Assembly (NCBI GenBank): GCA_002989075.1
Contig: PSQN01000014.1
Span: forward strand, 62,001-126,000
Direction: 5' to 3'
Origin: Arthonia radiata
Taxonomy: Eukaryota; Ascomycota; Arthoniomycetes; Arthoniales; Arthoniaceae
DNA length: 64,000 nucleotides
This document shows positions 9,056-53,572 of the stretch, piece by piece (position 1 is the first letter of the stretch; each line of letters opens with the position of its first letter). A program made the translations under genes and the position numbers. Under the pieces are notes generated by a model that saw nothing but the letters and a program-made list of their open reading frames with translations, was not told the origin of the DNA and did no database searches.

Positions 9056-11088
9056 CTACACTGTGCCGCGCTGCAATCGCAACCATTCGTCCACGAGGCC
9101 TACGTAATCAGCCTTCCCGTACGGCTCGAAGGCTTCTCTCGCAGTACCTCTCACCCAGCCCCAAGGTCCTCCACTCTCCCTCATCATCTTCCGTCTCACT
9201 TCCAGACCCAGATCACCCAATATCATGTCCAAGTACGGCACCAATTCGAAGATGCTAGAAAGGAGATGTCAGCACAGTCCGTTCTGAAGTTTGTTCCGGT
9301 TCCAAACAAAGTGTTTTGAGACGACGCCGGCGCCTTAGCTGCCGAAAGGTGGCATTTGAAGCAACGGAAAGAAATGTGTGGAGGCTCTAAGACTCACAAG
9401 TCTGGAAACCTGTTTCCGAATCCCCATGGAAACCTCAGCTTGCAGAATTCCGTATGCAGTAACGTTTCCTGCCTGATGCGTTGATCAATTGAGTCCGTGT
9501 CGATACTTGGCAGGAGCTCTGTCTTCTCTGGATCGGATGATTGAAGAGCGACGTTCGAGTGGACGAGTAGAGGCGGTCCGAGCGATGGCAGCTGGCCATT
9601 CAGGTGTGCTGCAATCCATAGGGCCTGCGTCTGCACAGTCAGCGTCGTGCCGAAGTTGATTTGCAGGCCGCAGAACGCCAACGAGCGTTCGTGGATGTAT
9701 GGGGCTTGTGGCGCAACGAAGCGATAGAGTCGGTACGGTGTGTTCGCCCGTTTCTCATCGACCTCGGCGAGCGTGACTGAGCGCGATGGCGGAGTGTGGG
9801 TGTTCTTCAGCAGTGGCAGCGCCGCCGTGACGGCGTCATCTGCCGCCCTCATTTCATTTGTGCTTCCAGCCGTGGGGTCGTAATATGGCACACCCAACTT
9901 CTTCTCAATGCCCTCCGGTAGAAATTTGATGGAGGACTCGTGCCGCCAACCGGTGCAGCAAACCAATGCATCCGCGTCGAGTTTACTCGCCTCTTCCAAC
10001 CGCACTGTGTGATCGCTCAGCTCGACAATTTCATCAATGTGCACATCTATGAGACCCCTCTCCACCAGTGATAGGATGTCTTGTTCCTCCTGCAGCGCGC
10101 CTTGTCCCGCAGCCACATTCATGAAGTCGGTCCACGGTTTGAGCTTTGCAGTCGCCGGGCAGCGATCGTAGCCGACAGCGTCCATGAGATCCGCTTGCAT
10201 GGCGCTGAAGAGACCATGTACCATTTTGCGCCCAAGCCAGGTCCGCTGCAGGAAGGCGCGCGCGCAGGCTTCGAGGTATGAAGATGTGCCACCCCAGATG
10301 CAGGGGCTGAACCAGCTCACTGCTCGTGTCATGACGAGATCTTCCTTTTTGAGCTTGAGCGGCGTGGCTCGTGAAGGCCCCATCCAGCAGGGTCCATGGC
10401 CAGACTTGCGGATGACCCAGTGCACTTTCGCGCCGGCGTGTGCGTACGCGTACGCAGCATCCCAGGCTAGCTTGGTGCCGCCGAAGACGACGACAGAGGC
10501 GTTTGGTTTGAGTGTCTTGAGATGTGCGCTCATGTATCTACCGTGGAGCACAGGGGCATTGAAACTGCCGCCCCCAATATGATCGAAGTCCGGAAGAAAA
10601 GGGCGATCACAGAGCCCGGCTGCTACAATGAGTTTGGCGGTGAGGATGCTGCGGGCTGAAGTGGTGTTCGTCAAACGGTCGGTGCAACGCACGGTGAGTA
10701 ACCAGCCCTGCTCACCCTTGTGCTCGGCGGACTCGACGCGGTGGCTGAGCCGAATACGAGATTCGATATCAAAGTGGAGAGCGTAAGCTGTGAGGTATTT
10801 ATTCACGTCGGCACTCGTGGCATGAGAGTCGTACTCAGGTATGTCGACGCCGGCCATGGAGTAGGAATAGTCGCTGAATTCATAGTAGCCGTTGAGATTG
10901 TTGGTGTGCAAATGAGGATAGGAGCGCTCGGTTGCCCAGACACCACCGAGGCCGTTTCCACCTTCCAGGATGGCATATGTTGTATGCGGATTGACTTGGC
11001 TGTATGTCTTTGCGGCGCAGAGACCGGCGACGCCAGCACCTATGATGGTGAGGTCGAGCCGCTCGTCGTACGGCTCCGACGTCGCCAT
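9056..11088 (-). CDS. FAD-dependent monooxygenase (FMO-like)
   Basis: Exons 9398-11088 and 9056-9254 give 629 residues. The start is placed at MATSEPYDERLDL because an FAD-binding Rossmann motif follows at once (LTIIGAGVAGLCAAKTY, GxGxxG). A GGVWATERSYPHLHTN string follows, as in flavin-containing monooxygenases. A second dinucleotide-binding site, VVVFGGTKLAWDAAYAYA, is atypical because the usual GxGxSG is altered. ALVCCTGWRHESS is the C-terminal FMO ATG/CTG-type motif. The downstream exon supplies the tail (LVPYLDMILGDLGLE, FEPYGKADYVGLVDEW), which is typical of fungal FMO-like proteins. Such enzymes use NADPH and O2 to oxygenate N, S or ketone groups; the substrate is unknown. The intron 9255-9397 is an introner-like element. 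Confidence 0.85.
9255..9397 (-). mobile_element. Introner-like element A (143-nt intron)
   Basis: This intron of the monooxygenase gene (phase 2) begins GTGAGTCTTAGAGCCTCC and ends GTGCTGACATCTCCTTTCTAG. It shares its head, a middle CTTTGTTTGG core and a GCTGAC branch motif 19 nt before the acceptor end with four other introns in this window. Ordinary introns nearby are 47-67 nt and share none of this. Confidence 0.8.
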
Positions 11089-38572: not shown

Positions 38573-40059
38573 ATGGCTGCCAGTATCACTGAACTTGCGA
38601 ATGCAATCGCTAAAGACACTACCCTCGTCGACGACTACTTTGAAAAGCGCAACCTCCCCAAGCCGAGCTTCAACGAGGATGGCCCTTCTAACATTCGTAT
38701 TCCTCCATCATCGCCAGATGTTGCTGCAGCTCACGCTCGGGCAGTGGCAGCGACCAGAGAGCTCCATGCACTGTTGCAAGGCCCCAGTATGGGCCTACGT
38801 ACCATCTTTCAGATCAACGACTTGCTCGCTCTGCAGTTCATCTACCGCTTTGAAGTGGCCAATCATGTTCCGGTTGGCAACGACATTTCATTCGAGGAGC
38901 TCTCAAGAGCGGCCGGCATTGATCAGCAGACGCTGACGCGGGTCTTGCGATATGGCTTCACCAATTGGTTATTCAGAGAGACACGTCCAGGTTGTGTTGG
39001 TCACACTGCCGCGACGAGAGCGATGCATGATAGCAAAGGCACTCGTGATTCCGTTGGGCTCGGCGTGAATGAGGGTCTCAGCAGCTCCTTCAACGTAGTT
39101 GATGCTCTGCAAAAGTATGGGGCGTCTAGTGAGCCTAATGAGTCGGGATGGGCGCTCGCCAACAGCGCGACGCAGCCATTCTTCATGGAGCTTGCCCTTC
39201 GCCATCCCGAGCGTTCCGCCGTGGTTGCTGGAGCAATGGAGGCATACTCCGCCGGCATACCTCTGGATCCGCTGTTCGAAGCCTACGACTTTTCCGCCGC
39301 TGGTCACAAGGTCGTCGATATCGGTGGCGGTCACGGCCAAGTCAGCATTGGGATCGCCAAGCGCTATCCAGACATGCACTGCATCGTTCAAGACTTGCCC
39401 GAGGTAAGTCTCACGGTGTATATTAAGCGCTACAACTAAAGATCCTGAGTACTCTTATAGCAGCAGCCGTACCTTGCCTTGCCCGCCTGTTCACCCAGCG
39501 GCTGGCAACTGGTCCGCTGGCCTTCACTCAAAATACTCTGTTTGAGGCCTGACCACTGTTGCGCGAACGCTTTCCAGAACACGATGCGCTGACATATCGC
39601 TCTTAGGTCATAAAAGCCGCAGAGAGTACAAGAAAGGATCTGTCTGATGACATCAAGCACCGCGTCGAATATCAATTCCATGATTTCTTTGACGAACAGC
39701 CAGTCAAGGACGCAGACCTCTACCTCTACCGCGCCGTCTTCCACAACTGGTCCGACAAATACTGCTTCAAGGCCCTCAAGGCCCTCGTACCAGCGCTGAA
39801 GAAAGGCACTCGTGTCGTCATCATCGACTCTGTGATGCCTGAGCCTGGCGTGGCTCCGCCGGCTGTTGAGCGGCTGAAGATGGCAGTCGACTTGAATATG
39901 ATGACGTACTTCAACGCTCGCGAGCGCACGCTTGAAGACTGGAAGGACCTTTTCGCAAAAGCTGATGATCGTCTGAAGTTTCAAGGAGTGAAGAGTGTGG
40001 GCAAAGGGGGTCAAGCTTTCATGATGGCATCGGTCATGGAGGCTATTTGGGAGCCTTGA
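38573..40059 (+). CDS. SAM-dependent O-methyltransferase (fungal OmtA-like)
   Basis: Exons 38573-39403 and 39607-40059 give 427 residues. The N-terminal part is a winged-helix dimerisation domain (ISFEELSRAAGIDQQTLTRVLRYGF). The SAM-binding motif I is KVVDIGGGHGQVSIGIAKRYP, followed by CIVQDLPEVI. The catalytic His lies in YLYRAVFHNWSD, and GTRVVIIDSVMPEPG is the next conserved strand. This is the family of sterigmatocystin/aflatoxin-type O-methyltransferases, which methylate phenolic or polyketide hydroxyls. No polyketide synthase or other backbone gene is in the window, so no secondary-metabolite cluster is claimed. The single 203-nt intron is an introner-like element with an extended 5' part. 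Confidence 0.92.
39404..39606 (+). mobile_element. Introner-like element E (203-nt intron, extended)
   Basis: The phase-0 intron of the O-methyltransferase gene. Its 3' 100 nt match the introner family: a CTCAAAATACTCTGTTTGAG core and TGCGCTGACATATCGCTCTTAG at the end, with GCTGAC again 19 nt from the acceptor end. The head GTAAGTCTCA also matches. Between them lies extra sequence that includes a complete-looking short intron end (TTATAG at 39460), so the element may be composite. Confidence 0.65.
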
Positions 40060-44795: not shown

Positions 44796-46439
44796 CTACG
44801 TACACGTCTGCCCATGCAGGCCACTTTCCTTAACATTGCGACAAGTCGTCTCTACAGCTGTACCATTCGTCAAAGCGGTCACACTGTAGTTTTCATAGCT
44901 AATGTTGAAGCACGGATGCCGCGCGGAACACGTGATCTGGTTGCCGATCTGCGACCGGTTGCTGTATCCCGTGAAGTTCACGAAAGAGACATCAGATACC
45001 AACATGTTCGAAGTGCCAGTGAAGCTGCCGTTGTTGCCACTATCCTGGCTGATGGCGGTGGCGAGGCTCGGCCCATGCAAGACGAAGTTGCTGAACAGAA
45101 TGTTTGACACGGACCCCCAGCCGCCGCCTCTGGGTAGGCCCGCGCTTTCGTAGGATGATTGGGGAGCAAGCTCACCGATCCACGTCTTGATGTAGGCACC
45201 GTTCTCCATGTCTTCGTTGTACTAGGGAGAAAGTGTCAGCACAGTTTCTTCCGAAGGTCGTTCAGGTTTCAAACAAAGCGTCTGGGAGCAGCGCCAGCGC
45301 GCTAGCAGTCCGACAAAGGTTGGGAGGCAACAGAAGGGAATGCCTGGAGACTCTAAGACTTACCTAGAAACAAGATGTCAGCGCAGCCGCTTCTGTTGTG
45401 CGCTCAGTTTTCAACCCAAGTCTTTTGGGGCAACGCCAGCGCGCTAGTTGCCTGACAAAATTTTTTGCGGCAACAGAATGAAATGTGAGGATGCTCTGAG
45501 ACTTACCATCTCGATAGTGACGTTGTCCACGCAGACATTAGCGACTGAGCTATCCTCAAGGTATTGGCCGAGAGAACCGATTGCCATGCCATTACCTCCG
45601 CGGCAAAGGGCGTTCTTGACGATCACGTTATAGCTGCGCGGCTTGATGGCAATGCAATCCTGAACAAAGATCAGCTTGTTCGTCACCAGGAGTCTTGGAA
45701 TTCACCTACATCGCCGCCTTGGTAAGTGAAGTTCTCTAAACGGATATTGTTCGCATCCATTGTGTCTGTGCTGTCAGCAAGATGGTCTGTTCGGTCAGGA
45801 GCGCTCTAGCTTACCAAAGCCGTCCGTGTTCTGCACCCAATTCTGGCCGTATGGTACCTGCGTGGCTGTTGCGTTCACATACATGTTACTGAACGACATG
45901 TCCGTGCCGTTCATGATGTTGATTGACCACAGCTGGGGCTGCTTTACAAAGAAGTCGTCGACGGTCACATCGCTCACATTCCAGAAAACAAACGGCATTG
46001 GTCTGCCTGGCTGTGTCTTGCCGGCTTCTGCGGTATACCATGTATCGCCGTTGCCATCGATGCCACCGGTTCCATAGCCATTGATGTGGATGCCGTCGCC
46101 TGTCAAAACAAAGCCTGCGGCATGATTCTGGAACGCAATCGGGTAAGAGTTGTTGCGCCAGTAGTCCAGGTCCGTCGAGTATACCCAGGTGCCACGCCAC
46201 TCGATTGTCACGTCGTCGACTACCGGGTTGAGCCTCGAGGCAATGTTGTAGGATCTACCTTCTGGGAAGACAATCGTGCCGCCATTGTTGCATCGTGCGA
46301 AGGCGTCGAGTATCTGAGGGACGTCGTCTGCCCCGTTGCCCAAAGGTTCAACGGTGCATGTGTCGCTTGCTTGTCGGCTCTCAACCACTGCAGCTTTCGT
46401 GACTACTACGCAGAGCAATGCGGACCACCAACCATGCAT
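44796..46439 (-). CDS. Secreted GH28 pectinase (exopolygalacturonase / rhamnogalacturonan-hydrolase type)
   Basis: Exons 45815-46439, 45710-45765, 45507-45659 and 44796-45221 give 419 residues with a signal peptide at the start (WWSALLCVVVTKAAVV). The GH28 parallel beta-helix motifs appear after splicing: NTDGFD (204-209), GGDDC (225-229, two catalytic Asp), GGNGMAIGSLGQY (248-260) and YIKTW (288-292). The usual GHG catalytic-loop His is replaced by Asn, as in some exo-acting members; this affects the likely mechanism or substrate. The enzyme should cleave galacturonate-containing pectin chains outside the cell. Two 49-50 nt introns are ordinary. The last two introns are introner-like elements joined with no exon between. 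It diverges from the GH78 rhamnosidase gene. Confidence 0.9.
45222..45363 (-). mobile_element. Introner-like element B (142-nt intron)
   Basis: This element of the GH28 gene begins GTAAGTCTTAGAGTCTCC and ends GTGCTGACACTTTCTCCCTAG on the minus strand. It shares CTAGCGCGCTGGCG with copy C and CTTTGTTTG with copy A. Its 5' splice site starts on the base right after the 3' end of copy C. Confidence 0.82.
45364..45506 (-). mobile_element. Introner-like element C (143-nt intron)
   Basis: This begins GTAAGTCTCAGAGCATCC after the codon ATG and ends GCGCTGACATCTTGTTTCTAG. A GTTGCC...GGCAAC inverted repeat with a 16-nt loop could form a hairpin. Its acceptor AG directly touches the GTAAGT of copy B, leaving a zero-length exon. 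Confidence 0.82.
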
Positions 46440-52029: not shown

Positions 52030-53572
52030 CTACTGCGCTGCTTTCAGCGCATTCTCGATCTCCTCCGCGATCATCTCAACGCCCACAGTCCCCTCCTGGC
52101 ATGGCACCCAGTGACCAGCTCTTTCTATCCACCTCACTTTCACCATTCCCTTGCTCCATTCTTCGATGCCGTCTACCATTACCCTCCAGTCTAGTGCCGG
52201 ATCTTTCCTGCCCCAGATAATTGTCACCCGTCTCTTCACTTCACCTAGAAGCGAGAGGTCAGCACGGCTTGTTCCAGAGAGTGTTCACACCTCGGCCATT
52301 CATGTTCCAGACTGAGGCAATGCCAGCGCGACGGATGTCAAACACTGCTCCGCAGGCAACATGATCGAATTTGTGGATACTTTGAGACTCACCATCTGTT
52401 TCGCCACTTCCCGCTCTCGGCCTGTCCATCTCCTCGCACATCTCCTTCGCACGTCCTTCCATTCTCCACGTCTCATCCGCTAACCCATCACGATAATACC
52501 GCACGCTTTCCGTCTCCGCATTACCCCATCCTGCTCTACTCGTCACCCGTTGTTTGACGTCGCTACTATAGACCCTAATCCCTCCATTTTCAGCTTGCAC
52601 GCTCTCCGCCAGCGCACTCCCCTTGGAGACCTCTCCAGGACCCAACGATACCGCTAAATGCTCGGCAATCGTCTCCTCATTCCTGTCATCGTGAGCTGGG
52701 CCCAAACCCGGTAGGGCACCCGGTCCCCTGCCTGTAATCGCAAGCTGCGCCACAGATCGCAAAAAGAACCGTTGACCAGACCAAAATGTGAACGACACAA
52801 TAGATGGCAGTCTAAAAACGAAAATATAGTAGCTCTTCGCCAGCTGAGCCAACACCGGTCCCAACTGCCGCCACGCCGCACTCACCTCGAGCCTCTTCAG
52901 GTGCAGGACGCCTGAGTGTGCCCTCCGCTGCACGTTCCATGAAGCAAAGGCGGAAATCGGTCCATTGATCAAGATGAAGCTGTCAGCCACCGCGGGGGCT
53001 TCGACCGCGAGGCGTCCTACGATTGCGGCGCCCCAGTCATGGCTCACTAGTAAGACCTTACCATCACGATGGGTGTACCGCTGGCGCAGGAGATAGATGA
53101 GCTCGACGATCGTGTCGAGGACGGAGGTGGCGCTGTATGATGATAGACCGTCGGAGCCGCCGAAGCCAGGGAGATCAGGCGCTACTAAAGTGGCGTGAAG
53201 AGATGGGTTGGCGGTGAGGAGGGCTCTCCACGTCTTGAGCCAAAGATGACCGGAGTCAGGCCAGCCGTGCAGGAAGATGATGAGATCCTTTTTGCCGCTT
53301 GCATTGACGGGCGTGCTTGAAACGGATGGTTGGGTGGTTAGATAGTGTATTGCTGTGCCCGCTTGAAGGCGGATGAAGTTGTGATGAGCGTGACGAGACT
53401 CCATGAGCGGTATCGGCTTTGACAAGTCCCACAAGGTGTTTCGATACGAAGCGAGTAATGCGTAGAAGCGCTTCGTTGGTGGAGAAAAGACGTGGCCGTC
53501 TAGCGTTGCTCGCAGGGAAAGGACCAGGGCGAGCACGGTGCCGTAGCCTGTTGCCAGCGCCTGGAGGAGCAT
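52030..53572 (-). CDS. Epoxide-hydrolase-like alpha/beta hydrolase
   Basis: Exons 52393-53572 and 52030-52244 give 464 residues. A hydrophobic N-terminal segment (ALATGYGTVLALVLSLRATL) could anchor it in a membrane. The oxyanion motif HGWPDSG (102-108) and the nucleophile Asp179 in LLVSHDWGAAIVG mark the epoxide-hydrolase/haloalkane-dehalogenase branch. The second exon supplies the acid and base: the Asp in IIWGRKDPALDWR and the His in RAGHWVPCQEG. This gives a complete Asp-His-acid set. The likely role is epoxide opening; the natural substrate is unknown. The long insert between lid and C-terminus (residues about 270-390) is low in conservation-like features. The intron 52245-52392 is an introner-like element. 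Confidence 0.88.
52245..52392 (-). mobile_element. Introner-like element D (148-nt intron)
   Basis: The phase-1 intron of the epoxide-hydrolase-like gene begins GTGAGTCTCAAAGTATCC and ends GTGCTGACCTCTCGCTTCTAG. It shares ATGTTGCCT and CGCGCTGGC with the GH28 copies and has GCTGAC 19 nt from the acceptor end. It is the most diverged of the four full-length-type copies. Confidence 0.75.

Follow-up and report, generated by a model that had tools for sequence, protein, structure and literature searches.

The gene on the minus strand at positions 46439-44796 of the window, by which we mean the whole stretch of 64,000 nucleotides analysed here, is predicted to encode a 419-residue glycosyl hydrolase of family 28 (GH28; PF00295, E = 2.1e-44), the product of which resembles fungal proteins named galacturonan 1,4-alpha-galacturonidase. 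The closest GH28 protein among the matches listed is that of Coniocarpon cinnabarinum (79%), an arthoniomycete, and the host fungus is probably lichen-forming. The coding sequence is interrupted by two ordinary short introns and, further downstream, by two adjoining introners, e1 and e2, around which the order on the minus strand is exon ...GTCACTATCGAGATG / GTAAGTCTCAG...GCTGACATCTTGTTTCTAG (e1) / GTAAGTCTTAG...GCTGACACTTTCTCCCTAG (e2) / TACAACGAAGAC exon. The features of the gene, and the other members of this introner family in the window, are as follows.

45815..46439, minus strand: GH28 exon 1, with the predicted start codon at 46439 (PF00295)
45766..45814, minus strand: ordinary short intron 1, 49 nt, predicted (sequence; frame and homologues)
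45710..45765, minus strand: GH28 exon 2 (sequence)
45660..45709, minus strand: ordinary short intron 2, 50 nt, predicted (sequence; frame and homologues)
45507..45659, minus strand: GH28 exon 3, ending in VTIEM (sequence; homologue alignment)
45506-45364, minus strand: introner e1, 143 nt, with the GT donor at 45506-45505 and the AG acceptor ending at 45364
45377..45381, minus strand: putative branch point CTGAC of e1 (sequence; GCTGAC invariant in the 24-copy alignment)
45363..45364, minus strand: zero-length exon, the AG/GT joint of e1 and e2 (sequence)
45363-45222, minus strand: introner e2, 142 nt, with the GT donor at 45363-45362 and the AG acceptor ending at 45222
45235..45239, minus strand: putative branch point CTGAC of e2 (sequence; GCTGAC invariant in the 24-copy alignment)
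44796..45221, minus strand: GH28 exon 4, beginning with YNEDM, with the stop codon at 44798-44796 (homologue alignment)
9255-9397, minus strand: further introner of the family (profile match)
52245-52392, minus strand: further introner of the family, diverged (profile match)
39462-39606, plus strand: further introner of the family, diverged (profile match)

The e1/e2 pair and its joint

The preliminary description had placed two head-to-tail introners with a zero-length exon, at an AG|GT junction, in 45222..45506, and the coordinates and profile matches bear this out to the base. The two elements together make up 285 nt with a spacer of 0 nt, and both donors are whole, i.e. ATG|GTAAGT for e1 and CTAG|GTAAGT for e2. 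The sequence GTAAGTCTTAG is found at 4 places in the window when at most 1 mismatch is allowed, compared with 0.51 expected from shuffling. A profile built from e1 and e2 themselves matches them with E-values of 2.1e-45 and 2e-43, respectively, and finds 3 more copies in the window that were not used in building it (E = 1e-25, 3.7e-11 and 9.4e-07), none of which has an adjoining introner match in the profile search. The identity between e1 and e2 is 72%, while the nearest relative of e1 elsewhere (C1:1006984) is 87% identical to it and that of e2 (C15:1824421) 92%, in either case along both halves of the element.

Cutting out the 285 nt joins VTIEM in frame to YNEDM, just as had been described, and in 110 of the 120 listed homologues (440 were found) the residues on either side of the join follow each other with none inserted. 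The codon before the insertion (45507-45509) is ATG, encoding M, at a position where the 25 homologues examined mostly carry R. If either e1 or e2 were retained singly the frame would shift, because neither 143 nor 142 is a multiple of 3, and retention of both brings stop codons into all three frames. With a donor, a branch point and an acceptor to each element, either of the two short introns could go first. The spliceosome would remove them by intron definition, the mode attributed to Ascomycota (PMC12403724), stepwise or at once, and by an alternative route the outer donor might be paired directly with the outer acceptor. All these routes would yield the same mRNA, and the order of splicing is not readable from the DNA, because either order, or a single 285-nt intron, leads to the same product; the sequence thus speaks neither for nor against the recursive ratchet that the preliminary description had raised.

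The introner family and its arrays across the genome

In the genome searched (33,499,693 bases in 16 contigs), the 5' end of the family, GTRAGTCTYAGAGCNTCCANRCATT, is found with at most 3 mismatches at 185 places, and the reversed-pattern control at 0. The profile gives 185 matches as well, a coincidence of numbers, in 116 stretches that comprise 273 kb with the window included. The termini common to these introners are GTAAGTCTYAGAGCNTCCA at the 5' end and GCTGAC...YAG at the 3' end. An alignment of 24 copies has a mean column identity of 83% and 22 invariant columns, and G1 T2, GCTGAC and the final AG, all invariant in it, constitute complete spliceosomal signals. At least three types can be distinguished by eye, namely A (~142 nt, including e1 and e2), B (~156 nt) and D (~306 nt), and the genes in which they sit are unrelated (GH28, UBE2C-like, MFS, ankyrin, rhodopsin-like, SLX1-like and GST). 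The family is thus one of introners or introner-like elements (ILEs), i.e. many similar introns in unrelated genes, and is like the ILEs described from Dothideomycetes, which are multicopy spliceosomal introns of unrelated genes held to be recent gains (PMC4457414). Stable folding is described for fungal ILEs, as quoted in PMC8469720, though introners in general are not defined by it; unusually stable RNA folding was not found by z-scores in the 30 best of 147 copies here (mean z -0.38, with 3 of the 30 below -2). The consensus fold is weak (-7.7 kcal/mol, with 2 of 19 pairs changed on both sides). RNAalifold pairs consensus columns 5-13, after the donor, with columns 121-130 in the branch point region, with little covariation; this pairing bears some resemblance to stems described close to the termini of stwintrons.

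The head-to-tail arrangement, which the preliminary description had not foreseen outside the GH28 gene, is general in the host genome. Its frequency was taken only from the 5'-end sample, because the loci from the joint searches had been selected for tandem joints; the sample consists of the first 100 of the 185 places ordered by mismatches, hence the best conserved, of which 99 were evaluable. In 36 of these 99 copies (directly upstream in 18, directly downstream in 22) another introner match adjoins head to tail, at about -12 to +20 nt from where the end is expected, at least 2 of the 36 being halves of a fused type, B'A (C1:1597463 and C2:1230280). By a strict count an intact YAG|GTRNGY joint is present in 25 of the 99, and of the 18 joints on the upstream side 15 have kept AG|GT or AG|GC. 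The rate is lower in another sample, whose places were ranked by their similarity to e1; there 2 of the 13 new places (of 15 e1-like places) adjoin by eye. When all scanned stretches are taken together, in a set that includes loci chosen for their tandem joints, 40 of 127 clusters hold at least two matches and 28 at least one intact joint. The tandem-joint pattern itself occurs at 29 places versus 6 in the reversed control, 19 of the 29 being, by eye, joints between profile matches, and another search for tandem joints gave 10 places versus 3 in its reversed control. According to a rough estimate, which assumes half a million G|G sites in coding DNA, a few hundred introners would by chance produce well under one exact abutment.

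Among 65 same-strand gaps shorter than 600 nt, 33 are exactly 0 and 56 lie within -12 to +14; the remainder are two boundary overlaps (-25 and -63), three gaps of 32, 113 and 147, and four longer ones, gaps beyond the short range being undercounted because most of the short stretches examined are 541 nt long. There is no excess of near misses with a tiny exon among these 65. Rows of three and four matches are found by the profile search. One row of about 1 kb (G000:C16:967222-968240; L137, L076) holds seven matches of mixed types, or about five elements if the fused types are counted as one each, and several of its inner splice sites have decayed. At L149:1-60 a weak match on the opposite strand (E = 3.9e-05) lies ~3 nt upstream of an introner without a GT donor, and this pair may be an old head-to-head arrangement.

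Judged from the proteins that they interrupt, the arrays look like working introns. Of 20 arrays, 6 were picked since their proteins were recognisable, and in five of these removal restores domains across the join for UQ_con (E = 5.6e-39), Fung_rhodopsin, SLX1_C, Ank_2 and MFS_1, the last with a match below its curated cut-off, as it does for GH28; the sixth join has no Pfam match and resembles the N-terminus of a glutathione transferase. The UBE2C-like join aligns gap-free, and so does that of the glutathione transferase, but only about four residues precede the latter. Of 20 arrays, 17 have an open frame at the exact join, as do 52 of 64 single introners (43 and 38 when shifted by 1 and 2 nt); alone, this test is weak, because array joins shifted by 1 or 2 nt are also open in 12 and 14 of the 20.

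As the inner splice sites of an array would be dispensable they could decay, by which the array would turn into one longer intron. Splice sites are intact in 33 of 58 joints for internal acceptors and in 39 of 50 for internal donors, compared with 32 of 38 outer donors and 30 of 35 outer acceptors, but young joints and old fused types are pooled here, and for the outer acceptors the search was laxer; the comparison is only suggestive of inner decay. The fused form B'A, about 273 nt long, consists of a B-like element of 130 or 131 nt and an A-like element, without inner splice sites, and is found at five places whose inner joints are similar (C2:1230280, C2:1434199, C1:1597463, C14:1882849 and C16:967380), the copy at C1:1597463 lying in the UBE2C-like gene. 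Type D is found at no fewer than 11 places, 6 of which adjoin another introner by eye; the D copy used as query itself adjoins an A element, and some D-like matches lie outside the 11 places. Of 7 newly examined D loci, 4 match the introner profile with both halves, L138 and L139 strongly, L140 and L141 weakly in the first half. The halves of L138 to L141 resemble the A type, and L142 is a further type D locus. On their sequences, B'A and D look like fused dimers that later multiplied.

Placement of introners and origin of the arrays

Adjoining partners are not particularly related to each other. In the 32 adjoining pairs in which both copies are near full length, the mean identity of partners is 0.617, versus 0.629 for all pairs of 147 copies; the partner is the nearest relative in 0 of 64 cases, and on average it ranks a little below the middle. 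In no case (0 of 64) does half of a copy resemble the partner more than it does the best relative, and the likeness of partners is not clearly raised in any window of the alignment, the ends included, columns 41-65 being below the null (z ~-2). The first and second copies show no co-divergence (r 0.019, P 0.42), and the first copy is closer to its relatives in 17 of the 32 pairs, i.e. there is no polarity. Two candidate routes were rejected on these data. Dimers spreading as a unit do not agree with the absence of co-divergence, the fused types B'A and D being the exceptions, and a single crossover by which a circle enters the middle of a resident copy does not agree with the absence of chimaeras, which leaves room only for crossovers inside the shared ends.

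The places where introners land are restricted as well. When 142 of the 147 near-full elements were removed singly and their flanks rejoined, none was found to be interrupted by another copy, in a test that recovered 113 of 115 simulated interior insertions. None of 105 upstream flanks ends as an ordinary intron does (branch point motif plus AG), and 2 of 72 downstream flanks start with GTRNGY; by these motifs, which are no annotation and which odd introns could escape, few or no introners appear to adjoin ordinary introns. Taken together, the absence of interior insertions and the apparent absence of ordinary-intron borders suggest that placement recognises introners and not just any splice site. 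The outer flanks favour G|G, with G in 76% at -1 (n = 105) and in 63% at +1 (n = 70), and carry no longer motif. There is no target-site duplication, matches of 1 to 8 nt being about as frequent as in shuffled pairs (n = 58), and in this the family matches the introners of the ascomycete type. Helitrons have TC at the 5' end and CTRR at the 3' end, and insert between A and T. Helitron-like transposition was rejected here, since the 3' CTAG and the lack of duplication would fit but the 5' GTAAGT and the mostly G|G flanks do not.

We consider it probable, from the comparison of copies and joints, that independent introners were inserted at the borders of resident introners and that the resulting arrays are spliced seamlessly. 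Insertion of one introner at a splice site of another, one of the two origins offered in the preliminary description, fits the many adjoining pairs and their unrelated partners. The two introners would arrive one after the other, with integration guided by the termini that introners have in common. A possible agent is a joined-end copy (an intron circle), which might recombine with a resident terminus and thereby leave an AG|GT joint; this joined-end, homology-guided step is put forward tentatively, with the balance leaning against it. That the common ends are short is a counter-point to homologous recombination. In its fullest form the proposal would be one of self-homing, in which joined-end copies integrate at resident termini and build concatemers, the inner sites decay and the longer introner multiplies, and this whole sequence of events is a shade more doubtful than the integration step.

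Joint arrival, in which two different excised introners, as RNA or cDNA, are first linked head to tail and then enter the gene as an array in one insertion, would also yield exact AG|GT joints, unrelated partners and no interior insertions. It gains some weight from a weak correlation (r 0.39, P 0.03) between the ages of partners, measured by how identical each is to its nearest relative elsewhere, as joint arrival predicts; the composition of the family can also produce such a correlation. However, the identity to nearest relatives differs by more than 0.10 between the partners in 9 of the 32 pairs, and ordinary introns are not clearly among the partners, though their excised RNA should be on hand, which makes joint arrival rather unlikely. 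A re-used hot site, where one bond in the gene draws introners repeatedly and a second copy enters there before or behind the first, we rate no higher. It likewise predicts zero gaps and unrelated partners, and three parallel intron gains in a 15-bp window have been reported for introner-like elements (PMC4457414), but the outer flanks here offer just G|G, and neither the near-miss excess nor the polarity that would speak for such a site is seen.

The other explanations fare much worse. Were insertion random and selection to spare only harmless positions, the borders of introners would be occupied, being harmless; yet interiors and ordinary borders should be equally harmless, and with 0 of 142 interiors used, and at possible ordinary borders 0 of 105 upstream and 2 of 72 downstream, selection alone is very improbable. 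Tandem duplication of one introner, the other origin in the preliminary description, accounts for the head-to-tail order and has almost no probability left, as partners are no more alike than random copies and joints also connect different introner types, so that it is refuted for the 32 pairs, and e1 and e2 themselves have closer relatives elsewhere than each other. Loss of a small exon between two introners, which would likewise leave AG|GT, is just as improbable, since no residues are missing at the alignable joins of the GH28, UBE2C-like and, for the few residues before it, GST genes.

Relation to known introns and significance

The nearest known systems are fungal ILEs, [D1,2] stwintrons and recursive splicing. 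In four sequenced fragments described from Dothideomycetes, neighbouring ILEs lie 145 to 626 bp apart with an exon between them (PMC4457414), unlike the introners studied here, a quarter to a third of the sampled copies of which adjoin with no exon. The [D1,2] stwintrons of Xylariales are two adjoining U2 introns that can be removed stepwise, in two reactions, or be misspliced as a single intron; some of them multiply, and loss of the inner branch point has made one a single long intron (PMC8469720, PMC9024468, PMC12403724). In these the inner intron splits the donor between G1 and U2 and has to go first, and the authors suggest that the parts were duplicated as one unit (PMC8469720, PMC9024468, PMC12403724). 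The introner pairs, on the other hand, have whole donors, would be workable in any order of removal and have partners that differ from site to site. Because no donor is split, the pairs fall outside the definition of a stwintron, though they work like a twin intron. The juxtaposition of acceptor and donor as AG|GT at e1/e2 is also that of the ratchet points of recursive splicing, by which long fly introns are subdivided (PMC8605326, PMC6110457), whereas in an introner pair each half is a short introner, complete and with a separate history.

Introners have been described as DNA transposons, i.e. mobile introns that make new introns genome-wide; the ascomycete families of that study are without TSD and TIR, and fungal introners, which are without the marks of DNA transposition, are ascribed there to reverse splicing (PMC9860276). 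The words 'tandem' and 'nested' have 0 occurrences in the main text of that paper, in which tandem or nested introners are not raised. Exonless head-to-tail introners are absent from the matches listed in a full-text search of the open literature, and we do not claim priority.

How new spliceosomal introns enter genes is a long-standing question. The preference for the borders of introners, which apparently is not extended to ordinary introns or to the interiors of introners, is a constraint for every model, and the 28 arrays with intact joints make the question testable. If true, self-homing would give spliceosomal introns a route of integration that is so far unrecorded, and introns a likewise unrecorded way to grow.
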